Shown here piece by piece: positions 289-37,846 of a stretch of 64,000 nt of DNA. The position numbers were made by a program, and so were the translations under genes. Position 1 is the first letter of the stretch. Each line of letters opens with the position of its first letter. The notes below the pieces were generated by a model. That model did no database searches, had not been told where the DNA came from, and saw nothing but the letters and a program-made list of their open reading frames with translations. This stretch comes from Verrucomicrobiota bacterium (lineage in GTDB: Bacteria > Verrucomicrobiota > Verrucomicrobiia > Opitutales > Opitutaceae), in NCBI GenBank assembly GCA_030605125.1, contig JAUWBD010000001.1, positions 1 through 64,000 of the forward strand, in the 5' to 3' direction.

Positions 289-1983
289 ATGGCCGTCGAT
301 ACGACCCACTTCAAGATCAACGGGCAGACCTTCGCCGAGCTGGGCATCAGCGAGCCGCGTCTGCGGGGCGTAAACGGCGCGCCCGATGTCTTCTCCTGGC
401 GCGATCCTCTCACGCGCTTCGACGCGGCGCTGCGCTGGCCCTACGACACCGAGATCGTGCTCACGGCCGGAGGCGAGGTGGTGTTTCGCGGCAAGGTGCG
501 GAAGACGCCGCGTTTCCTTGGGGCCACCGCCGAGAGCATCGCCTACGAGGCCCACGGGCCGTGGGCCTGGTTGAACGAGCAGGCCTACCTGCAGGAGCAC
601 CGCTTCGTGGACGATCCCGAGGCGGAGGAGCCTACCTTCACGCCGAAGGAGCACGGCCGCGCGGTGCTCGGCCTGAAACTCAAAGAGGATGGCACGAGCG
701 AACACGTGCAACTGGGCGAGGCGCTGGCCGAGATCGTCTCCACCTCCGGCGCGGGCGTGACGGTGGGCTCGATCACCGGCTTCGATTTTCAGGTCCCTCT
801 GGACGAGGCGGTGGATCTCCAGGTGACGGACGCGATGGGCCGTCTCCTGCAGTGGGCACCCGACGCGGCGGAGTGGTATGGCTACGCAGCCTCCCCGCCG
901 ACCTACAACGTGGGGCGGCGAGCCGATCTCGAGGAGGTCACGCTCGCGGTGCCAGCGCCGGGCGAGGGAGGCACCGAGCCCTTCGTGCCATTCGAGAGCA
1001 TCGCTCTCGATCCCGCCTATAAGCTCCAGGCGCCGGCGGTGGTGATCTTCTTCCGCCGCGCCACGGACGCGACCAATGGTGTCTGGGCCGTGCATGAAAA
1101 ACAGGCGGCGCCAGAGGGGGCGACAGGGCGCGAGCCGCGCGCGATCGTGCGGACGATCGATCTCGCCGGCGCCGTGCCTGGTGGCGGCCGCCTCACTCAG
1201 CCGGTGAAGACGGAGTCGCTCTCGGCGCTGCTACAGACGGCGGGCACGGTGCTGCCGGCGACGGGCGAGGCGGGCAATGCCTTCAACGCCCTCGCGGCCT
1301 TCTGGCGGCGGAAGGTGCCGCGCCTCCGCAACGCGACGATCAATGCTTTCCAGGCTTGCACCCGTGTGCGCGTGCCTGACGGGAGCGAGGACAAGAACCA
1401 ATCGACGGCACCGACGGCCGTCTGCATCCGCGAACTCACGCGCGGCGGCATCACCGACTGGATGCTCGAGCAACAGGCATCGCTCCGGGTGGAGACGCAG
1501 GTGATCAGCTGCCGGGTGCTGTTCACTGAAGTGGTGGACGGTGTCTCCACGGTGCGCGTGGAGAACTACACCACGCGCGTGACTGCGACCAACGCGGTGA
1601 CGAAGGCATACCGGTCGCGCGGTGGTGTGGTGGAGGTTGGTGAGGAAGCCGAGGCGGCGATGCCTGGTCTCGCCGCCAAGATCTGGCAGGGCGTCAAGGA
1701 TCTCCACTACGACGGCACCTTCGTGATCGTTGAGGAGCGGCCCACGCTGACGGTGCGCCCGGGCAAGGTGGTCAATCTGGACTGCGCTGCGCGCCCGGAG
1801 TGGGCGAACATGCGCGCGCTGGTGCAGATGGTGGATGCAGACCTGGCGACGGGGCGCACGGTCGTGACGGTGGGCCCGCCGCACCACCTGGGGCCGCAGG
1901 AGCTGCAGGAACTCTTCCGCAGCAACCGCAGCCGAAAGGACGTGCTCAGCGCCGACGTGCGCGTGGCCGGCAGATACAGCTAA
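289..1983 (+). CDS. Phage tail/baseplate-like structural protein (putative)
   Basis: 564-aa ORF 7 bp after the preceding stop. Tail-hub-like composition and a C-terminal ...VVTVGPPHHLGPQELQELFRSNRSRK segment. Part of a tight co-directional module. Confidence 0.5.
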   Translation: MAVDTTHFKINGQTFAELGISEPRLRGVNGAPDVFSWRDPLTRFDAALRWPYDTEIVLTAGGEVVFRGKVRKTPRFLGATAESIAYEAHGPWAWLNEQAYLQEHRFVDDPEAEEPTFTPKEHGRAVLGLKLKEDGTSEHVQLGEALAEIVSTSGAGVTVGSITGFDFQVPLDEAVDLQVTDAMGRLLQWAPDAAEWYGYAASPPTYNVGRRADLEEVTLAVPAPGEGGTEPFVPFESIALDPAYKLQAPAVVIFFRRATDATNGVWAVHEKQAAPEGATGREPRAIVRTIDLAGAVPGGGRLTQPVKTESLSALLQTAGTVLPATGEAGNAFNALAAFWRRKVPRLRNATINAFQACTRVRVPDGSEDKNQSTAPTAVCIRELTRGGITDWMLEQQASLRVETQVISCRVLFTEVVDGVSTVRVENYTTRVTATNAVTKAYRSRGGVVEVGEEAEAAMPGLAAKIWQGVKDLHYDGTFVIVEERPTLTVRPGKVVNLDCAARPEWANMRALVQMVDADLATGRTVVTVGPPHHLGPQELQELFRSNRSRKDVLSADVRVAGRYS

Positions 1984-1989
1984 GCAACG

Positions 1990-2553
1990 ATGAACGGACT
2001 CCCCAGATGGCTCCCTCAAGACGACACGGTGCCGACGCCGGGCAGCGGCGTGTCGAACTTGCCGCCTCTCTACTTGACCTTCGAGCAGCCGCCTGGCTAC
2101 CCGCCGCCGCCGCCCGGAACGGTGCACCCGGTCTTCGTGACGTGGGGCCGCGCCGGCAATCGGCCGCCAAGCAACATCACCGCCTACTCGCCGGCCGCGA
2201 CGGGAAAGCGGTTCGCGATCAAGGTCACCACCAACGGCGCGCATCCAATCCAAGTGCTCTCGGCGGAAATCGTGGCGGCTGTAGGCGAGGTGCCGGCCGA
2301 CACGGGCGGCACCGAGTTTACTCCGCCGACGGTGATGTATCGGCTGCTCGGCGAGATCCTCGGGGCCGGCACGGAGGCGAGCCCATTTGCGATAGGGCAA
2401 GGACCGGGCGGGAACCTGAATCTCGAAAGCTATCTGCTCGGCACCGTTTGCCAGACCTACGCGCCGGGCAACCCTTCGGCGGAGCCGCCTGTTCCGGCGA
2501 CGCCGGCCGGAGTGCGCAGCACCTACGGGGTGCGGTGGGTGGTGGGAGGCTGA
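1990..2553 (+). CDS. Hypothetical protein of the phage-like module
   Basis: 187-aa ORF starting 6 bp after the previous stop and followed 3 bp later by the next ORF. Proline-rich N-terminus. Confidence 0.55.
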   Translation: MNGLPRWLPQDDTVPTPGSGVSNLPPLYLTFEQPPGYPPPPPGTVHPVFVTWGRAGNRPPSNITAYSPAATGKRFAIKVTTNGAHPIQVLSAEIVAAVGEVPADTGGTEFTPPTVMYRLLGEILGAGTEASPFAIGQGPGGNLNLESYLLGTVCQTYAPGNPSAEPPVPATPAGVRSTYGVRWVVGG

Positions 2554-2556
2554 GCC

Positions 2557-4833
2557 ATGGCAGACCCAACTTTCGCTAAGGTGGTCCCCATGGCGGATTG
2601 GTGCGGCCCGGTCGGCGGCAACCCGGCGCCCTGCCTCTCGTGCGTGCCCTTCGTGGCGCGCGGGGCGGCCACTACACGGGAACGGCCGGGGTATTGGGAC
2701 GCGCTGCCCGTGCAGCCGCAGAACTGCGAGTTCGGCGATCAGCGCCATGTGTATGCCACCTGGCGGCGCTTCCGCCGGATCGATGCCTCCGGAGAGATCG
2801 TGCTCACCACCGTGCACGAGGCGCGGCTGCATGAGCCGGAGTTCGGTTACACTTCCACCAATGTCCAAGCGTTCAAACTTGAGGGCGGTGGCGAGGTCGC
2901 ATTTTCCGGCGATCCCTTCAGCGGCACCCCCTACATCTACCCCACGCTTACGCTCCGCCGCTACGCCTACGGCATCCTAGAGGGCTACATCAACAACGAC
3001 CCCAATTTCTACGAGGAGACGCCCCCCGGCCCTTGGGGCTACGATCAACCCGGGGCTTCGACGCAGAGCGTGCCGACAGGTGTGAACAGCGCATGGGTGG
3101 GGAGCTTCAGCACCGGCAATCCGTTTTTTATCCCGGTGCGTCGCAGTCCAGACGACAACGAGACACACCGACGCTGCCAGATCGAGAGCACGCCGACGCG
3201 TTCCGCGATCAAGGCAATGAGCGGCTCGGGCGTGCATGAGGTGCGCAACAGCAGCGGCGTCTTGACCGACCGCTACACCTACACCGCGACCGGCGAGATC
3301 GCGCTGGAGGTATCGGAGGAGCTGACCGTGGAGGACTGGATCGCGGAGCTGGCGGCGAGTATTGCCAACCCGAACATCTGGCCCGCCGGGGTGATCGACG
3401 GCTCCGGGCTTGCCGGCGGCAGCATCAACCAAATCGCCAATCTTAATGCCGCGACCCCTCGCTATCCCGACGCCTACAATGTCGGGATCGTCATGAGCTT
3501 TCGCCATTTGCGATTCCTCATCCCTGACAGCGTTGCGCCGAATCAGACGTGGCGTGTGGCGCTGCTGATCGAGAAGCGCAAGGGCCTACCGGGTTGGGTG
3601 GAGGCTTTTACCTCTGCGGGAACGCCAAACAGCTTCGACACGGAAACGCTCACATTGGAGGACGAGATCAGCGCGCCCGTGGACCCATTGGGCTCGCTGG
3701 CGCAGGCCGATGCGTCGTGGGCGCTCATTGGGTGGACTTGGGGCACCATCGCGCTCAACTCGGCGCAGACTGTGGCAACGCACACCCGGCGCTCCCGGGT
3801 GCGGTTGGGCTTCGCTCCCGGCACGCGGAGCGTCGCGATCACCTTCCGCCTGCGCCGACTGGAATCCAAGCCAGGGAGCCCGACAGTGGAGACCTTTGCC
3901 GAGCTGACGACGGCGATCCAGCCCGATGGCCTCAACCTCACGGCCGAGGTATGGGTGGCGCCACCGGACAACCTCACCACGGTGACGATCTCAGTGGTAT
4001 GGGTGCGCGACGCGGAGGGCAGCAACGTGACCGGCTGGTCTTGGATCACGAAGACTCGCGACGGGCAATGGGGCATCCGTCAGCTCGATCACGCCTCGCT
4101 GCAAGCGGGCAGTCGCTTCTTCCGCCGTGCGCGTTTGGTCAAGAGCACCTCAATCACACCGAACTATGGCTACGGCGATGACCCGGGTGCGCCGGAAGTG
4201 GATGACTATATGCTCCGGGTGCGAAATCAGGCCGCCTACGCTTTGGTCGCTTCGATCACTCAGACCCAAGAGTGGGTGCGGGAGTGGTCGTGGACGCGCA
4301 ACAACGCCGCCGCGTGGGGGTGGGGCGACGGTGGCTGGCGACTTGTGGCGGCGGCGGGCGAGATGACCGAATCTCCCGCTCAACCTAACCCGATGGGCGA
4401 AGGCGGGGCGTTTTCGTGGCAGAACCGAGTGTCGGGCGACTCGCTGTGTGCGCCGACAGTGGCCTTGCTGAACCTGCCTCTCGCGCCCGGCTCGATCTCG
4501 GCGGGCGGCACCGGGGGCTGGAGCGTGTCGGCTACGAGCGTGTCGCGTGCGCGCTCCTTCCACTACTACACTCCGCATGTGTCGATCTTCGGTGAGCACG
4601 CCGGCTCTGCGCCGTCGGGCAACGCGGCCTACGTGCCGTTGGCGGAGCAGCTCGGCGAACCTGAATACGAGCGGGTGGAGTTGACCACGAGCAAGGTGAC
4701 CAGAACGGGCCTCAACCCTTTCACCGGGCAGACAGGCAGCTTCGATTATCAGGAGACGCCGCCGATCCTGTTGTTGGCTCAGGAGCGAGGCACGCAGGTT
4801 AGGATCGCGGACGTGGTGATCACGCCAGCCTAG
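2557..4833 (+). CDS. Hypothetical 758-aa phage-like structural/receptor-binding protein
   Basis: Long ORF, last gene of the co-directional module. Beta-rich, Trp/Thr-rich composition. No family recognised. Confidence 0.5.
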   Translation: MADPTFAKVVPMADWCGPVGGNPAPCLSCVPFVARGAATTRERPGYWDALPVQPQNCEFGDQRHVYATWRRFRRIDASGEIVLTTVHEARLHEPEFGYTSTNVQAFKLEGGGEVAFSGDPFSGTPYIYPTLTLRRYAYGILEGYINNDPNFYEETPPGPWGYDQPGASTQSVPTGVNSAWVGSFSTGNPFFIPVRRSPDDNETHRRCQIESTPTRSAIKAMSGSGVHEVRNSSGVLTDRYTYTATGEIALEVSEELTVEDWIAELAASIANPNIWPAGVIDGSGLAGGSINQIANLNAATPRYPDAYNVGIVMSFRHLRFLIPDSVAPNQTWRVALLIEKRKGLPGWVEAFTSAGTPNSFDTETLTLEDEISAPVDPLGSLAQADASWALIGWTWGTIALNSAQTVATHTRRSRVRLGFAPGTRSVAITFRLRRLESKPGSPTVETFAELTTAIQPDGLNLTAEVWVAPPDNLTTVTISVVWVRDAEGSNVTGWSWITKTRDGQWGIRQLDHASLQAGSRFFRRARLVKSTSITPNYGYGDDPGAPEVDDYMLRVRNQAAYALVASITQTQEWVREWSWTRNNAAAWGWGDGGWRLVAAAGEMTESPAQPNPMGEGGAFSWQNRVSGDSLCAPTVALLNLPLAPGSISAGGTGGWSVSATSVSRARSFHYYTPHVSIFGEHAGSAPSGNAAYVPLAEQLGEPEYERVELTTSKVTRTGLNPFTGQTGSFDYQETPPILLLAQERGTQVRIADVVITPA

Positions 4834-21468: not shown

Positions 21469-22869
21469 ATGAAACTCGTCTTTGTCGGCGGCGGCGCGCA
21501 TCGCGTTCTCGCCATCTCCCGCAGCATCCTCGCCCTCCCCGGCGCCCTCGAATCCGGCGAGATCTGCCTCTGCGATCTCAACCTCGCCCGCGCCGAAGCC
21601 ATGGGGCGTATGCTGAGGCAGAGCCCCGAGTTTCGCGCCTCCGGTGGACGCATCACCTGGACCACCTCGCTCGACGAGGCGCTCCCCGGCGCCGACGTGG
21701 TCGCCATCATCATGCCCGCCGCGCCGAAGGAGTTCTTCCTTCGCGCCCGCGGCCGCGCCCTCCACCACGGCTTCATCAGCTCCGACAACGTCTCGCCCAC
21801 CGGCGCCCTCTGCGGCGTCAACGTCGCGCCGATCCTCCTCGACCTCGCCCGCCGCATGGAGCGCCACTGCCCGGAGGCTTGGCTGCTCAATTTCGTCAAT
21901 CCGGTGGCCGTGCTCTCGGGCATGATCAACAACCACACCCGCATTCGCTGCCTCGGCGTGTGTGCCGGCTTCATCAACCACCTCTGGGACATCCCGCGTC
22001 TCTTCGGCCGCGACGAGGAAGCGTCGCAACTCCAGGTCGAGACCGCCGGCATCAACCACCTCAGCTTCATCCTCAAGGGCCGCTGGGAAAACCAAGACCT
22101 GCTCCCCGCGCTAGAAAAGCGCCTCGCCGCCCCCGACTGGCAGCCGCCGCAGCTCCAGCCCTGGTGGGGCGAAAGCGGACAACGCAACATCACGCGCAGC
22201 GTAAAGCGACTCGCCCGCTTCTGGCGCGAACTCGGCGTGCTCGTCTTCTCGACCGAGGGCGACGGCATGGATCACCTCATGTATGACGAGGTCGTCGAGA
22301 CCGAGCGCGCCCGTCACCGCGACCTCACCGACGCCGAGATCGCGGACTCCGTCGCCACGACCGCCACCCGTCGCGCCGAGTTGGACAAGACCTTCCAAGC
22401 CTGGCTCGACCGCCCGCTCGACGACGCCTTCTGGGCCGAACACTGGAAAACCGATCCACGCTTCAAACGCGCCGACGAGGACATCTTTGTCCGCATTTTC
22501 GCCGCCCTCGCCGGTGTTTGCGAGGCGCGCGTGGCCACCAGCTACCTGAATCGCGGCGCCATCGCCGGCATCAAGGACCGCCACGTCGTCGAATACACCC
22601 AGACCATTCGCGGCCGCAGCCTCGCCCCCGTCACCCCCGGCCTCGAAATCCCGGACGTGGTCCAAGGTATCACCTGCGGCATCGCCGCCCACCAGACCGC
22701 GCTCGGCGACGCTCTTGCGCACGACGATCCCCGCGAGCTCGCCCGCGCCCTCCTCACCTACCCGATCGCGCCCTACTCGCGGCCGCTTCGCGCGCTCTAC
22801 CGCGAGCTGCTCTCGCTCTCCTGCTGCTCCTTCACACCCGCCGCCCGCCAGGCCGCCAGCCACCTCTGA
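21469..22869 (+). CDS. Glycoside hydrolase family 4 (NAD-dependent alpha-glucosidase/galactosidase/galacturonase class)
   Basis: KLVFVGGGAHRVLAISRSIL Rossmann start; LLNFVNPVAVLSGMINNHTRIRCLGVCAGF; AGINHLSFI. Confidence 0.85.
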   Translation: MKLVFVGGGAHRVLAISRSILALPGALESGEICLCDLNLARAEAMGRMLRQSPEFRASGGRITWTTSLDEALPGADVVAIIMPAAPKEFFLRARGRALHHGFISSDNVSPTGALCGVNVAPILLDLARRMERHCPEAWLLNFVNPVAVLSGMINNHTRIRCLGVCAGFINHLWDIPRLFGRDEEASQLQVETAGINHLSFILKGRWENQDLLPALEKRLAAPDWQPPQLQPWWGESGQRNITRSVKRLARFWRELGVLVFSTEGDGMDHLMYDEVVETERARHRDLTDAEIADSVATTATRRAELDKTFQAWLDRPLDDAFWAEHWKTDPRFKRADEDIFVRIFAALAGVCEARVATSYLNRGAIAGIKDRHVVEYTQTIRGRSLAPVTPGLEIPDVVQGITCGIAAHQTALGDALAHDDPRELARALLTYPIAPYSRPLRALYRELLSLSCCSFTPAARQAASHL

Positions 22870-22881
22870 GTATTCCGCGAG

Positions 22882-25560
22882 ATGCGCTCCGCCCTACCCC
22901 GCCTGCTCGTCCACGCTGCCCGCGCCGTCTGCGTCGGCCTCGCATTCCTGCCCTTCCTTGGCTCGCGCCTCGACGCCAGAAAAGATGCGCCGGACGACAC
23001 CGTCCGCGTCTCCGTCGTTTCGCGCTTCTTCGATCCCAACCAGCCCGAGTCCGCCCCGCAATTGATCGAGATGATGCGCCGCGATCCCGCGCTGCGCATC
23101 GAGATGTGGAGCGGCCTCGCGCTTCCCGGCGGCGGCGGACGCTCGGCGATCATCATGTCGATCGCCGGCCAGACCTCGCCCGACATCATGGAGTCGTGGT
23201 TCCACGTCATCCGGAACGACATCGACCAAGGCTTCCTCCACCCGCTCAACGAATGGATCGGCGAAGACCTCGACGGCGACGGCGAGATCAGCCCCGAGGA
23301 GGCGATCTGGCCCGGATGGAAAGACGTGCCTCCGCTCTGGCGCAAGGTCGCCACCGTGAACGGCAAGATCTACGGCCTCCCCCAGGCCGCCGCCTCCACC
23401 ATGGGCGTGCTCTTCCGCACGGACCTCGTGCGCAACGCCGGCCTCGATCCCAACCAGCCGCCGACCACCTGGGAGGAGTATCACTACTGGGCCATGCGCC
23501 TCTCCGACCCCGGCGTGCCGGTGCCGGGCCGCCTCTACAACCCCGGCCAACGCGCGGTCGCCATCGCGCCCCACGGCTTCACCTGGCTGCCCTGGGTGCA
23601 GAGCGCCGGCGGCGAGCCCATCGTGCAAACCCGCACCGATCCGCGCACCGGGCAGGCCCACGTGTTCTCCCTCGACGCCGAATCGTTTGTCCTGCCCGAC
23701 GGCACCGACCTCGCCGACATCGCCCCCGAGTTTCGCGCCAACTTCGACTCGCCCGAGGCGATCAAAACCGCCGCGTTCTACCACCAACTCCGCTGGGGCC
23801 GCTGGATTCTCGACCCCGAGACGCACGAGCCGATCGCGCTCGACTCCGCCGCGCTCGCCGCCGGCGAGGTCGTCGTCGGCGGGCGCACCCTGCGCTTCAC
23901 CCCCGCCGAGGTTCGCCAAGGGGTCGCCCGCGCCCACCTCGGCTCGCGCGACACCGACCCGCTCCAGCTGCTTGGCCGCGGCGAAGTCGCGATGACCACC
24001 TGGTTCGTCACCGACATCCTCAACACCGGCAACACCTCCAATCTCAACCCCGACCTGCTGAGCTGGTTCCCCATCCCCGCCGGCTCGCCCGACGCCTCGC
24101 CTGTCGTGCAAGTGCAGCGCCACTACGCCGCCATGGCGGTCAACGTCGGCCTGCGCCCCAAGGCCGAGCGAGACCAGGTCTGGCAGGTGCTCCAGGGCGT
24201 GACCGACGGCGCCGCCCGCGACGCCAACTCCGCCCGCATGGTCGCCTTCGGCCTCGCCCGCTTCGTCGATCCGCGCACGCTCACCCGCCTCGGCTACGAC
24301 GACTACCTGCGCAGCGTGCCCGCCGCGCTCCGCGACGCCTACAACCGCATCGACCGCGGCGAGATCAAGAGCTTCACCGAGCCCTACCAGGGCTTCTGGA
24401 CCACGATGGACGGCGCCATCAACCGCGAGGTCCTCGGCATCCTCATCTCCCAGAGCGGGGAAAACTTCGACTACGCCGCCGCGCTCCGCGCCGTGAACCG
24501 CAAGGCCAACTCCGGCGTCATGTTCGCGCGCCCCCAGGCCGAGCTCGACGAGCACCGCCCGCTGGCCCGCGTCATCTTCGCCGTGCTCGCCGCGCTCGTC
24601 ACCGGTCTCGCCGTGATGTTCGTGCGCTCGATCTTTAAGAAACGCCCCGTCGCCTCCACCGGCATGGTCAACAACCCCGTCCTGCCCTGGCTGCTGCTGC
24701 TGCCCGCGCTCGCGCTGATCGGCACCTGGGGCTACTACCCGCTCGTCCGCGGCATGGTGATGGCCTTCCAGAACTTTCGCATCGCCGGCGAGAGCCCCTT
24801 CGTCGGGCTGGACAACTTCATCACCCTCGCGCTCGACCGCAGCTTCTGGGCGAGCATGGGCACCACGGTTTACTACGTCGTGCTGACGATGCTGATCTCC
24901 TTCACGTCGCCCATCGCGCTCGCCATCATGCTCTCCGAGGTGCCGCGCGGGAAGATGTTTTACCGCACCCTCTTCTTCCTCCCGCAGGTGACCAGCGGCC
25001 TCGTGATCGCGCTGCTCTGGAAACTGATGTTCGACCCGAGGCCCAACGGCATCTTCAACCAGGTCGTATCCATCCTTAACTACATCCCCGGGGTGGAGAT
25101 CGGCGCGCAGTCCTGGCTCGAGGACCCCTCGATCGCCATGCTCTGCGTCGTGTTGCCCGGCGCCTGGGCCAGCGCCGGCATCGCCAGCCTCATCTACCTC
25201 GCCGCGCTCAAGAGCGTGCCCGAGGACGCCTACGAGGCCTGCGAGATCGATGGCGGCGGCATCCTCGTGAAGCTGCGCCACATCACCCTGCCGGTGCTGA
25301 TGCCGCTCATCATCATCAACTTCCTCGGGGCCTTCATCGCCACCTTCCAAAACATGGGGAACATCTTCCTGCTCACCTTCGGCGGCCCCGGCGAGGCGAC
25401 GATGGTCGTGAGCATGAAGATCTGGATCGAGGCCTACAGCAACCTGCGCTTCAGCATCGCCACCTCGATGGCGTGGATCGTCGGCGCCTGCCTGATCAGC
25501 TTCACCTTCCTCCAGATGCAGGTGCTCAAACGCGTGGAGTTCCGCCGCAGCAAAGACTGA
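22882..25560 (+). CDS. ABC transporter solute-binding protein fused to MalF-like permease
   Basis: N-terminal extracellular binding-protein-type sequence (ADIMESWFHV.., TTWEEYHYWAMRL). Then a TM linker and a six-TM permease with the EAA-type loop EDAYEACEIDGGGILVKLRHITLPVLMPLI. Confidence 0.85.
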   Translation: MRSALPRLLVHAARAVCVGLAFLPFLGSRLDARKDAPDDTVRVSVVSRFFDPNQPESAPQLIEMMRRDPALRIEMWSGLALPGGGGRSAIIMSIAGQTSPDIMESWFHVIRNDIDQGFLHPLNEWIGEDLDGDGEISPEEAIWPGWKDVPPLWRKVATVNGKIYGLPQAAASTMGVLFRTDLVRNAGLDPNQPPTTWEEYHYWAMRLSDPGVPVPGRLYNPGQRAVAIAPHGFTWLPWVQSAGGEPIVQTRTDPRTGQAHVFSLDAESFVLPDGTDLADIAPEFRANFDSPEAIKTAAFYHQLRWGRWILDPETHEPIALDSAALAAGEVVVGGRTLRFTPAEVRQGVARAHLGSRDTDPLQLLGRGEVAMTTWFVTDILNTGNTSNLNPDLLSWFPIPAGSPDASPVVQVQRHYAAMAVNVGLRPKAERDQVWQVLQGVTDGAARDANSARMVAFGLARFVDPRTLTRLGYDDYLRSVPAALRDAYNRIDRGEIKSFTEPYQGFWTTMDGAINREVLGILISQSGENFDYAAALRAVNRKANSGVMFARPQAELDEHRPLARVIFAVLAALVTGLAVMFVRSIFKKRPVASTGMVNNPVLPWLLLLPALALIGTWGYYPLVRGMVMAFQNFRIAGESPFVGLDNFITLALDRSFWASMGTTVYYVVLTMLISFTSPIALAIMLSEVPRGKMFYRTLFFLPQVTSGLVIALLWKLMFDPRPNGIFNQVVSILNYIPGVEIGAQSWLEDPSIAMLCVVLPGAWASAGIASLIYLAALKSVPEDAYEACEIDGGGILVKLRHITLPVLMPLIIINFLGAFIATFQNMGNIFLLTFGGPGEATMVVSMKIWIEAYSNLRFSIATSMAWIVGACLISFTFLQMQVLKRVEFRRSKD

Positions 25561-25621: not shown

Positions 25622-27784
25622 ATGCCTCTCCTCTCCAGCGTGGGCAGCAAGACCCTGTCGCAACGCCTCTTCGTCGCCTTCATCTACGCCACGTTGACCT
25701 TCTTCGGCGCCACCATGGCGGTGCCGTTCATGATCATGCTGACGAGCTCGGCGTCCAACAGCTACGACTACGACCGCTACTCGATCGTGCCGCGCTCCTT
25801 CTGGTCCGCCGAGGACCGCTTCATGAAGGGCACGCCCTATTTCGCCGGCCCCGGCGAGCTCTTCCCCGACAAGCCCGCCCTCTGGACCTCCTGGCGCGCC
25901 GTCGGTCTCGATCGCGACACCGCCGACCAGCTCGCCCGCCGCTACCTCGACGCCTCCGCCCAGGAGCGGGCTCTCTGGAGCCGCCAGGCCGCCGACTACT
26001 CCGACTTCGCGCTCGATTACCCGCTCGTTGACTCCGAAGCCGTCTTCAACCGCGAGATCGCCTCCGAGTTCATGCTCCAGCACTACGTCGAGCAGGCCCT
26101 TCGTCGCGATCCATCCCTCGCCGACGAGCGACGCTCGGTGCGTGAACGCGCCGCCCTCGCCCTCCTCTCCGAGACCTGGGGCGTGCCGGTCGAGAACTAC
26201 ATCGCCATCCGCTTCGACCGCGAGGCGCGCTACCCCATGGCGCAGCAGTCCTGGGTCCCGCCCGGCGGCCCCAAGTGGGACGACTTCATCACCCTGCGAC
26301 ACGCCCTCCGGCACGGGCTGCAGACTCCCGGCGTGCTCGGCGAGTGGCGCTCCCACCTGCGCAAACACGGTTATACCAGGGCCGAGATCCAGCGCCTCAG
26401 CCCGCCGCCCGCCGACGCCCCCGCCGAGGTCGCCGCGCTCTGGCGCGAGTTCGCCCGCACCCAGGCCCCGCTCTCCCCCGTCATTCCGCTCTCCTTGCGC
26501 AAGACCTGGCTCCACTACCTCGCCGGCGACGACGCCCGCGAGATCCTCGGCCTCGACGCCAGCCAGCGCTTCGACATCGCCCGCTACAATACCCTCGCCG
26601 GCACCGCCTACGCCCGCCTCGAGGACACGCCCTTCCCGCTGCCCGCCGAGGGCTTTGACGGCCTGCGACCGCTCTGGCTCCGCTTTATCGAGGAGCAATA
26701 CCCGCTGCGCCTCACCCACCTGCGGCCCAGCCCGGGCCTCCGCACCCGCTACGAGGCCTTTCTTCAGGCCAACTACGAGAGCGTCGCCTCGCTCAACCAG
26801 ATCCTCGGCACGCACTACGCCGACTGGTCCGAGGTGCCGCTGCCCGAGAGCCTGCCCGAGGCGCGCCCCGGCCAGGCCGGCGGCCTGCGCGAGGTGTGGT
26901 TCGCCTTCGCCAAGAGTCTTCCCGCCGCCGACCGCCTCGTGCACTCCGGCGACGCCGCCTGGCAGGCGTATTTGCGCGGCAAATACGGATCGCTCGAGGC
27001 GCTCAACGCCGCCTACGGCTGGAACCTCCGGCTCTGGGAGGAGGCGCGCATGCCCCTCGACAAGGCCTACGCCGTCACCTACGGCCAGCACCGCTTCGCC
27101 TTCGCGATCGAGCCGGTGCGTTTCAACTACAGCACGATCCTGCGCTTCCTGCTCGACCAGGGAAACTCCATCCCGGTCACCCTGTGGCTTATCGTGCTGA
27201 GCATCGCCACCTCGCTCACGGTCAACCCGCTCGCGGGCTACGCCCTCTCGCGCTTTAACCTTCGCATGAAGGACAAGATCCTTCTCTTCTGCCTCGCGAC
27301 CTCCGCCTTTCCCGCGATGGTCAGCGCCATCCCGGGCTACCTGCTGATGCGCGACCTCGGGCTGCTCAACACCTTCATGGCGCTCGTGCTGCCCGGCGCG
27401 GCTAGCGGAATGAGCATCTTCATTCTGAAAGGCTTCTTCGACTCGCTGCCGCAGGAGCTCTACGAGGCCGCCACGATCGACGGCGCCAAGGAGTGGCAGA
27501 TCTTCCTTTTCGTCACGATCCCGATGGTGACGCCGATCCTCGCGATCAACGCGCTAAACGCCTTCATCGCGGCCTACGATGGCTGGGCCTGGGCGCTGAT
27601 CATCGCGCAGGACAAGAGCATGTGGACGCTCTCGGTGTGGCTCTACCAGGCCAACTTCTGGTGGTCGCAATCCCCGTGGATCACGACCGCCGGCTTCGTC
27701 GTCACCTCGATCCCCACCCTGCTCGTCTTCGTCTTCTGCCAGAAGATCATCATGCGCGGCATCATCGTGCCCTCGATGAAATGA
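25622..27784 (+). CDS. MalG-like ABC permease with ~450-aa periplasmic insertion after TM1
   Basis: TM1 FVAFIYATLTFFGATMAVPFMIML; permease core from IPVTLWLIVLSIATSLTVNPLAGYALSRF; EAA loop QELYEAATIDGAKEWQIFLFVTIPMVTPIL. Residues ~47-510 are an extra hydrophilic region. Confidence 0.85.
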   Translation: MPLLSSVGSKTLSQRLFVAFIYATLTFFGATMAVPFMIMLTSSASNSYDYDRYSIVPRSFWSAEDRFMKGTPYFAGPGELFPDKPALWTSWRAVGLDRDTADQLARRYLDASAQERALWSRQAADYSDFALDYPLVDSEAVFNREIASEFMLQHYVEQALRRDPSLADERRSVRERAALALLSETWGVPVENYIAIRFDREARYPMAQQSWVPPGGPKWDDFITLRHALRHGLQTPGVLGEWRSHLRKHGYTRAEIQRLSPPPADAPAEVAALWREFARTQAPLSPVIPLSLRKTWLHYLAGDDAREILGLDASQRFDIARYNTLAGTAYARLEDTPFPLPAEGFDGLRPLWLRFIEEQYPLRLTHLRPSPGLRTRYEAFLQANYESVASLNQILGTHYADWSEVPLPESLPEARPGQAGGLREVWFAFAKSLPAADRLVHSGDAAWQAYLRGKYGSLEALNAAYGWNLRLWEEARMPLDKAYAVTYGQHRFAFAIEPVRFNYSTILRFLLDQGNSIPVTLWLIVLSIATSLTVNPLAGYALSRFNLRMKDKILLFCLATSAFPAMVSAIPGYLLMRDLGLLNTFMALVLPGAASGMSIFILKGFFDSLPQELYEAATIDGAKEWQIFLFVTIPMVTPILAINALNAFIAAYDGWAWALIIAQDKSMWTLSVWLYQANFWWSQSPWITTAGFVVTSIPTLLVFVFCQKIIMRGIIVPSMK

Positions 27785-33797: not shown

Positions 33798-36700
33798 TCA
33801 GTAAGGCTCCGAATAGATGCTGAGACCGACGGAACGAACGTCGCCTCCGCGGGGCTCGTCCCAGTGGCGGATGAGCTCGATGTGGTTTTCCGCGCCAAAG
33901 CGGATCCAGGGCGTGACGTTGAGTTGGAAACGATCGGCCGTGATGCGGTGGTAGCGACGCACGAAACGACCGTTGACCAGCGCGCCGATGATCCGCCCGC
34001 CGGCATCGACATCGAGGTAGGCGTGCGGCGTCTCGACGCCGGGGAAGCGCGCCGGGACCTGCACCATGCGCTTCATCGCAAAAGCCGAGGAGCGACCGGG
34101 GAAGCGGACCGAGCCGGTCCAGCGCAAGGCGTCGGGACTCTCGCTCCACTCGCCGGCCAGATCGACGCGCGCCGCGGGCTCGGGCCAGAGCCACAGCCAA
34201 GCGTCGCCGCGCACGCCGGACAGCGTGCCGGTCGAGTGAATCACGACGGCGAGCTCGTGGGTGGAGCCGGGTTTGAGGGAAGGCGAGGTGAAGCCGTCGA
34301 TGCCGTTTCTCGACTTCGCGTGGATGACCTTTCCATCGAGGTAGATCTCGCCCTCGCCGACGAAGTAGTTGCCGGAGTTCGACTCGAGGGTGAGCGTGAC
34401 GTCACCCTTCCAGTTTTGCGGCACGGTGAACGAACGGCGCACCACGACGGTGCCAGGCTCGGGCCAGCCGGCAGTCGGCCAAGCGCCGAGGCGGGTCTTT
34501 TCCCAGGCGGCGGTGCTGGAGGTAGGCGCGAGGAGCGCGGCGATGTCCTCGCCGGGCTTCACCACGTGGCGGGCCCAGCCGTCGGTGAGGTCGAGCGTGT
34601 TGTCCACGCGCACGGGCTCGGCGGGCGGCGCGTCGCCGCGGGCGGTGCCGCGCCACCAGTTGCGTTGCAGCGTGAACCAGTCGGCGGGCGCCTGGCCGAT
34701 GGCGTTGCGCGGCGTCATCACGGCGCGCGTTTCCAGCGGCTTCAGCTCAAGCGCGAGAGCGCCATTGGTGATCGGCAGCGAAGCCTTGTCGCGCAGATCG
34801 ACGCCCCAAGTGGCGGAGCTGCCGGTGAGCTGGAGCCGGCCCTTGACCGCGGCGCTGTCGCTCGGATTCCAGAGCACCCAGATGTCGTAGAGTCCGTTGT
34901 TGGAGACGTAGTGGCGGACGAGCGTGCCGTCGCGATCCGCCTGCCAGCGGAAGGGCAAGGGAGCGATGTTTCGCCACTCGAGCAGTTGGGTGAGAAGATT
35001 GGTAAGCGCGTCGTTGCCGTTGGCGGGCAAGGCGCGGAGCGAGGCGGCGTCGCGGCGCTTGGCATCGATGCGGTCGGGAATGGAGTCACCGGAGAACTTG
35101 CAACCCACGTGGACGATGTAGCCCTCGCCGAGGCGACGCACTCCCAGGGCGACGCTGCCGTCATCCCAGAGCAGGACGTCCTGCGCGTCGTCGGCCACTT
35201 TGCGCAGGCGGAGGCCGTTGGCGCGAACGCCATCCCACTCGCCAGCGAGCACGGTTTGCCCAGGGGCGGACGCGAGGCGGCCCGATTGGCGGATGCGACC
35301 GTTGTCGTCCAAGGCGTCGATCCGATCGACGGCGTAGCCGGTCAGGCGCGAGATGGGCCAGGCGTCGGCCTGGTTGGTGGCGTGGCGACCGGTCTGCACG
35401 AAGGTGACGAAGGTGCCGCCCGAGCGCACGTAGTTCTCCACGTCGGCCAGCATGCGCTCGCTCATGATGGAGCTGTTGGTGTCGATGATGACGCGGTAGG
35501 CCGCGGCGTCGCCGTTGGGGAAGGAGGTCTCGCTGAGGCCGTCGCTGGGGTAGTAGTCGCGCAGGTTGGCGCGGACGTTCCAGCGCCAGTAGCCGGCGCC
35601 CAAGGTCTTGTTGGGATCGAGAATCCAGGGCAGCCGTTGAGCCGGATGTTTTCGGTCGAGTAGAAGGCGGCGACCTCGGCCTTGGGCGCGTGGTATTTGC
35701 CGATCAAGCGGAAGAGCGGGAGGTCCTGCTTGAGGTGCTGGCGGATCTCGGCGTTCCACATCAGCGAGCCGATGTGGATGAAGTAATCGATGCCCTGCAC
35801 GCCCTCGGTCATCCAGAGGCCTTGGAAGGTCTTGAAATGCTTTCCGTCGCGGGCGGGGCCGCCCGGCTCGACGGACATGGGCAGATTGCGCCCGCGCATG
35901 AGCGACGGGAGGTAGTCGGCCCAAAAGGCCGCCATGTAGCCGGTGTTGTGGAAATTGGAGCCGTAGCGGCCGGCGAGGTCGTTGATGTCGTCGGCGTAGG
36001 CGTCGGGCGCCATCTGCACGACCTGGTGGTTCGGATGAGTCTTGCGGATCGTCTCGAGGCCGCGGCGCACGGACTCCTTGCGCATCCAGCGGTGCCACAT
36101 CGCGAAGTCATACCACTGCGCGTTACGGCCCTTCTCGAAGAACGGATAGCCGTGCGGTTCCTCGCCGGAGAGGTAAACGCGGTAGGAGAGCTTTCCCTTC
36201 GGCAGGCGCAGCGCGAGGACGTTGCCCTCGGGCTTGAGGTGCTGGCTCACCTCGACGGCGGTCCAGTGCGGGGTCATGTGCCGGACCGTGGATTCGTCCA
36301 CGACCTTGTCGTTGAGCACGGCCTTGAACTGGTCGTTCGAGGTCAGGTTCATGCTCCAGACGTAGAGCCAGACCTGCGGGTGCTTCGCGAGCCAGTCGCG
36401 GGACACGGAGAAGTGCCGGCGCATCACGCCCGGGCGGCTGGGGATCACAAGGCTACGCTCGTCGCCGGGAGCCTGCAGCGAGGCCCAGCCGGAATCGTCG
36501 AAGCGGCTGGAGAACCACTCCTGCGGCGCGCCCAGAGAGGGGATGGCTCGCGTCCAGTTCGTGTCGGTGAAGAAAAGCAGGCGCTCGCCCTGCGTGTCCA
36601 GGTTCGGGGGCAGATCCTCGTAGGCGAGTTTCCACTCGCCGGTGAGATCGACGGCGTCCTCGCCCCAGCCGGCGAAGGAGGCGATCTCCTGCACGCGCAC

Positions 36701-37846
36701 CTCGTCCCAGGACGCGTGCGCGGTGCCCCAGGCGGCGTTCAGCGCGCGCAGGTCGTCGTATCGGGTTTTTAGATACTTGCGGTAGCTGGCGTCGGCGACG
36801 GAGCCGTATTCGACGAAGATCGAGTGCGCGACGTTCTTCAGCTCGCCGTGGGGCTCGAGCACGGTGGTGAGATTGGGCTGGTCCTTGAAGCGGCGCAGCA
36901 TGGTCTCGGCCATGTCGAACTGGATCTGGTTGGCCTCCTTGGCGGCCCAGGAAGCGGTGCCGCGGCCGCCGTAGAAGGGCGTGCCGATGCGGAAGAAGGA
37001 GCCGCCAAACTGCGGCATGGGCTCCATCATCTGCTCGCGATAGCGGTTGGTGAGCCAGGTGGCCTCGATGCCCTCGGCGACCTTGAGGTTGAGGCCGAGC
37101 GGGAGGCCGCGCGCCTCGGTCTGCGGGACGATCCAGTCCCACCAGACGTCGCGGTTGAGGCCGCCGGCCGTATCCATGGCGTTGGGGCCGGTGAAGACCA
37201 CCAGGCCGGTGCGGTCCATTTCCTCGGCGAACTGAAACTCGGAGAGGAAGTCGTAGCCGCCCTTGGCCTGCGCGGGCTTGTAGTCTTTGGGCGGGTTTTC
37301 CCAGGTGCGGTGGTAGGCGCGGAAGCCCCAGCGGTCCCAGCGGTCGAGATACATCGGCACCTCGGTGTCGGTGGCGAACTCCCAGCCGGCCCACTCCGGG
37401 CCGGCGAGCGCGGCTGCGAGCGCGGCGGACTCGGCGGCGGAGAGGATGCGCACCTCGGAACCCCGGCGCACGGCGACGATGCTCCCCTGCCCTTCGATCT
37501 GGCGGGCGGTCGCGGTCTGGCCCGTGCGGCCGAGGGTGATCTTCGATTCGCTGACCTTGGGGAGCAGCGACAAGTCCGAGAGATATTTCGCCTGGAGCAG
37601 CTTGGCTTTCTCCGGCGACTCGCAGCGGATGGAGAGCTGGCTCACACCGCCGCGCAGGTCGGTTTTCACCCCCGATACCGTGCCGTAGCCGCGCAGATCG
37701 ATTTCGCGAAATACGCCATCATGCGCGACGGCTGAAGTGGACGCGTCCGCACGCGGCTTCGCATCGGGAGCCGCTTGGGCAAAGGCGGTGGCGCCGCCAA
37801 GGAGCAGAGCGGCGAGCACGCGTTTGATCGGGGTCGGAGAGATCAT
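33798..37846 (-). pseudogene. Giant secreted GH42-like protein split by a single-nucleotide frameshift
   Basis: The N-terminal ORF (37846 to ~35630, ...AFYSTENIRLNG) and C-terminal ORF (~35630 to 33798, WILDPNKTLGAGYWRW...) are contiguous in two frames. Joined length would be ~1349 aa, matching the 1334-aa paralogue 16121-20125. Confidence 0.75.

Follow-up and report, generated by a model that had tools for sequence, protein, structure and literature searches.

A solute-binding protein fused to a MalF-type permease and paired with an oversized, repeat-bearing MalG-type subunit in Verrucomicrobiota

Sugar importers of the CUT1 type usually rely on a free or lipid-anchored receptor. In E. coli MalFGK2-E the receptor MalE is free, and it contacts the large MalF-P2 loop and the short MalG-P1 loop (Daus et al. 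2007, as cited in PMC3150292). A covalent link between receptor domains and the channel subunit is found in GlnPQ, a homodimer with two tandem receptor domains per channel subunit (PMC8025302), and in OpuA, which has two receptor domains for betaine (PMC11065425). Within CUT1, Licht et al. (2019, Res Microbiol 170:1-12, PMID 30193862, as cited in PMC9045158 and PMC7756565) have characterised a MalE-MalF fusion, and PMC7756565 describes such a fusion as transport-competent. A further close system is AlgM1M2SS with its free receptor AlgQ; an EF-hand-like site in the large solute-binding protein AlgQ2 touches the importer (PMC5717064).

The window analysed here is a stretch of 64,000 nucleotides from an Opitutaceae genome (contig JAUWBD010000001.1, positions 1 to 64,000), and it holds a gene pair encoding a fused receptor-permease and an oversized MalG-type partner. 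The pair shares with E. coli MalFGK2-E the subunit plan, the EAA loops and the use of a MalK-type ATPase, but its receptor is not free, its MalG loop is not short and its MalF core lacks MalF-P2. Two different BPD_transp_1 subunits with EAA loops, an SBP_bac_1 receptor and a MalK-type ATPase with OB/TOBE domains place it in CUT1, as an earlier sequence-only reading had proposed. It resembles GlnPQ and OpuA in the covalent joining of receptor and channel, but it is a heterodimer with one receptor domain, and the distinct, conserved MalG argues against a homodimer. As in the fusion of Licht et al., a single receptor domain shares one chain with a MalF-type channel of the CUT1 kind; the fusions grouped here as class I, to which the window gene belongs, differ from that fusion, as far as its citations describe it, in the repeat-bearing oversized MalG and in forming a large clade of Verrucomicrobiota and Armatimonadota. 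Receptor-permease fusion in CUT1 is therefore not new. What is new is the breadth of the clade and its obligatory repeat-bearing MalG, the latter being more unusual than the fusion itself; in the open-licence literature we found no description of the class I clade or of such a MalG.

The fused gene occupies 22882..25560 on the plus strand (coding 22882-25557) and is open from ATG to stop over 892 residues. It begins with a hydrophobic, signal-peptide-like stretch in which no lipobox was seen (residues 8-26, 22903..22959), followed by the solute-binding half (residues 40-552, 22999..24537), delimited by Pfam and by profile comparison with relatives. Residues 27-562 (536 residues) are soluble by hydropathy. 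An extra transmembrane helix, TM0 (residues 563-581, 24568..24624; mean hydropathy 2.42), conserved in relatives, then links receptor and permease and is followed by a 13-residue positive loop (582-594) with 4 K/R. The MalF-type core of six helices (residues 595-892, 24664..25557), whose nearest solved relatives are AlgM1, SugA and MalF, carries the EAA-type coupling loop YEACEIDGGG...LP (residues 784-808, 25231..25305), which is largely invariant in the alignment. Pfam detected SBP_bac_1 (residues 82-237, 45.5 bits against a cut-off of 26) and BPD_transp_1 (residues 681-888, 38.5 bits against 26.4) in the same chain, with SBP_bac_8 just under its cut-off. Thus the domain matches, the hydropathy and the open frame bear out the order of receptor-like half, transmembrane segment and full MalF-like permease that the sequence-only reading had given, and the receptor is indeed covalently joined to the MalF-type subunit.

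The solute-binding half also contains a canonical EF-hand loop, DLDGDGEISPEE (residues 129-140, 23266..23301), in which D129, G132, G134 and E140 are invariant across six relatives. Of 79 fused frames, 21 have the strict motif, most of them in the subclade of the window gene, and it is absent from shuffled sequences. It parallels the EF-hand-like calcium site of AlgQ and Smon0123 (SBP cluster 7, to which FusA also belongs), which are likewise large solute-binding proteins but free ones, and since that of AlgQ2 touches the importer, a structural role for the loop is plausible here. The receptor half has such a loop and the large size (about 57 kDa) of that cluster, but a profile search of solved structures returned neither AlgQ nor Smon0123, and by sequence we recognised no closeness to AlgQ.

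To place these proteins we compared permease cores. In a quick tree a single branch set the class I fusions apart (52 rows, SH-aLRT 94), and in a careful tree 38 class I permeases formed one clade (96/96, and 98% of bootstrap trees), the rows having been gathered with the class I profile so that nearby unfused relatives may be under-sampled. A second set of fusions, class II, occupies a separate place on the tree; it is found in other Opitutaceae, in one or two Armatimonadota and in the genome of the window itself, where it constitutes a third, separately derived SBP-MalF fusion (G000:C122, L092:1-2763 and 1782-3623). The one class II receptor tested is related to the chitobiose receptor NgcE. 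A tree with all fusions constrained to a single clade was rejected (AU p 2.1e-7, a somewhat optimistic value since the grouping was set before the AU test but after the quick tree had been seen), so that receptor-permease fusion arose at least twice, and class I and class II are, on these trees, of separate origin.

The partner gene (25622..27784, plus strand) encodes a MalG-type subunit of 720 residues. Its permease core (residues 506-720, 27137..27781) carries the EAA loop YEAATIDGAKEWQIF, a BPD_transp_1 match (540-712) and an NCBIfam MalG match; among solved structures, AlgM1 and AlgM2 come closest to the two permease cores of the pair. By hydropathy 481 residues separate TM1 from TM2, which agrees with the large accessory periplasmic domain previously read from the sequence, and most of this stretch is an insert of about 460 residues (residues 45-505, 25754..27136) that is conserved in relatives, absent from ordinary MalG and placed in the TM1-TM2 loop, the counterpart of MalG-P1. 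Such inserts contain 2-6 copies of a helical repeat of about 34 residues with the consensus, roughly, W..FL..KYG.L..LN..YGT.Y.SW.E..LP. Three of them lie in the window copy: a partial copy 1 (residues 318-339, 26573..26638), copy 2 (376-410, 26747..26851), which overlaps a Pfam Glyco_hydro_42 match at 374-414, and copy 3 (445-478, 26954..27055). The repeats are visible at the protein level only; no nucleotide tandem repeats were found in the fused gene or the MalG gene. AlphaFold models of the fused subunit and of MalG, built on alignments of six sequences each, were poor (mean pLDDT 44.5 and 49.5).

The oversized MalG was found in all 25 class I genomes tested (E <= 1e-72) in open frames that span about 500-850 residues (one of them truncated at a contig end), and ten of ten control Opitutaceae lacking class I matched in the MalG core only. 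The pairing holds despite unlinked genes (for example in G260, G327, G333 and G642), and in several genomes (L094, L095, L096, L128-L134) unrelated genes surround the class I fused gene, whose MalG lies elsewhere in the genome. Where the class I partner is linked and its MalG core complete, about 345-590 residues lie between TM1 and the core; the shortest unlinked partners have about 280 residues ahead of it. The length of the receptor did not correlate with that of the MalG insert (20 pairs, rho 0.18, p 0.44). The MalG partners of class II are ordinary where found, which shows that a fused receptor alone does not require a big MalG domain; the exception is the class II copy in the genome of the window, with a MalG frame of 614 residues whose start is provisional.

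About 67 kb away on the same contig lies a second operon copy (G000:C191:86716-92677, minus strand, at about 6.7-12.7 kb of L017), with a fused SBP-MalF gene (90062-92677, 74% identical), an oversized MalG, a MalK-type ATPase and then an FAD oxidoreductase. Three-gene operons including MalK were also seen at L008 and L009. The ATPase of the second operon is the one OB_MalK protein detected in the genome and does not lie beside the window copy; as there are at least four MalF/MalG pairs, it is probably shared. The genome also encodes a canonical importer whose SBP gene is separate (C115). Similarly, 11 of 14 class I genomes had exactly one OB_MalK ATPase, mostly unlinked, and three showed none.

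Both copies have carbohydrate enzymes as neighbours: GH4, pectate-lyase-like and GH42-like proteins and esterases, and, near the second operon copy, an alpha-L-fucosidase (GH29). These neighbours hint at plant or algal glycans as a possible substrate, and no common neighbouring enzyme that would name it was found around the operons compared. The glycoside hydrolase family 4 gene (21469..22869, plus strand; Pfam) ends 12 bases upstream of the fused gene and is probably co-transcribed with it. Its product reads CAGF where GH4 enzymes usually carry Cys-His, so its activity may differ from that of characterised members. The protein encoded at 35465-37846 on the minus strand (794 residues) has a weak partial Glyco_hydro_42 match (profile 97-188).

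Taken together, we consider it fairly probable that the gene pair encodes the membrane part of a CUT1 sugar importer with a single receptor, that the MalG domain serves as a dock for this tethered receptor and that MalK is shared. The signal sequence would secrete the receptor to the outside of the inner membrane, where TM0, in the predicted topology, would hold it to the permease so that it could not be lost by diffusion. The channel would be formed by the MalF core with its six helices together with the MalG core, and the EAA loops would couple it to the MalK-type ATPase encoded elsewhere, in the second operon copy. The 460-residue domain in the P1 loop would most likely dock and orient the tethered receptor, doing the job of the E. 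coli MalF-P2 loop that is missing from the window MalF core.

It is also possible, but unlikely, that the repeat domain is a second sugar-handling site, GH-related and binding or threading glycans, which feeds long oligosaccharides to the receptor. The neighbourhood rich in carbohydrate enzymes and the variable repeat number would suit this, and so would the resemblance of the repeat to a helical segment of GH42 and, weakly, of solved GH14 and GH50 enzymes, where a repeat-like stretch occurs singly; the MalG of L080 matches GH42 with E 2e-20 over three stretches (Pfam). The matched segment is, however, short (about 40 residues) and helical, and no other part of the enzyme fold turned up: the match in the insert covers only positions 151-196 out of the 376 of the GH42 profile, and a complete GH42 (beta/alpha)8 barrel was not found there. 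No binding residues were identified in the repeat domain. One may tentatively propose a distinct, old class of sugar importer with two extracytoplasmic sugar sites, one per subunit, the receptor being on MalF and the glycan-binding GH-related repeats on MalG; we regard this as doubtful.

We think it quite unlikely that the MalG domain instead reaches across the periplasm, or attaches to the cell wall or to an outer-membrane system for uptake, with the importer positioned beneath. The size, the tandem repeats and the helical content of the low-confidence MalG model would suit a stalk, but a match to a cell-wall-binding family is absent, and beside the operons no conserved outer-membrane gene stood out at a casual look. 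More improbable is that the receptor half is cleaved after secretion and acts free, the fusion being a genetic packaging device. Solute-binding protein levels usually exceed those of the permease (PMC9045158), an excess that a fusion would prevent. However, the junction helix is conserved, dozens of genomes keep the domain order, and the fused MalE-MalF works, as described in PMC7756565. Between the two copies in the genome dN/dS was 0.25 in the SBP part, 0.43-0.49 at the junction and 0.21 in the permease, hence purifying selection spans the SBP-permease junction. That the fused frame is an assembly or frameshift artefact, a concern which the sequence-only reading had raised for the read-through region at about 24540-24670, can be dismissed as having a negligible chance, because dN/dS in that region is 0.49 and stays below 0.5 through the junction, the second copy in the same genome is fused too, and many independent assemblies carry the full-length fusion, among them those of five full-length relatives (Verrucomicrobia, Opitutaceae, Lentisphaerae and Armatimonadetes included) with 53-76% identity over the whole length.

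A survey of genomes showed that the two-gene architecture recurs in Verrucomicrobiota, as the sequence-only reading had anticipated. There 197 of 388 genomes matched the six-sequence profile at E <= 1e-20, a count that includes ordinary permeases, and at least about 55 had strong matches (E < 1e-60) within open frames of no fewer than about 750 residues (counted from the table of matches). The same counting gave about 90 of 201 genomes in the Armatimonadota sample. Separate receptor and permease profiles confirmed both parts within one frame in the frames sampled. The departure from a free or lipid-anchored receptor thus stands, but not as a rare or isolated one, given dozens of genomes in two phyla and the earlier fusion cited from Licht et al. 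2019. Opitutaceae have few close class I fusions (G000 and G439; G471 and G414 are more distant), and most members have an ordinary MalF of about 300 residues.

Outside these phyla, at E <= 1e-45, a cut-off that would miss distant fusions, none was confirmed among 200 Bacillota genomes, and under the same limitation one of 149 Spirochaetota genomes had fusions. For a Bacillota frame of 862 residues (G756, L119) Pfam detected no SBP within the 810 residues examined, and it was not counted as a fusion. In a plasmid collection 869 records matched but none covered 80% of the query, the best ones aligning with the permease part only. Several contigs of the genome of the window (C239, C59, C218 and C217; L171, L173) carry SBP_bac_1 in frames of 806-854 residues without a permease-profile match.

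A large clade in two phyla has given up the free receptor for one receptor per channel and, in the genomes tested, always combines this with a MalG that bears repeats, an arrangement which annotation names such as permease or solute-binding protein conceal. The clade offers a way to test what normally favours a surplus of free receptor, which function the P1 loop of MalG has and in what way a single shared ATPase can drive several permease pairs.

Some members of the clade are irregular. In the subgroup of L094, L095 and L096 the receptor half is shorter by about 90 profile positions (about 209-302), and the MalG has only about 500 residues. The match to the class I fused gene of L028 (G231:C63:8524-11196) counts one TGA, which suggests a disrupted copy, a sequencing error or an edge effect. 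The Spirochaetota genome with fusions (G1024) has two of class I (L121 and L124; L138 and L139), which suggests transfer or mis-binning.
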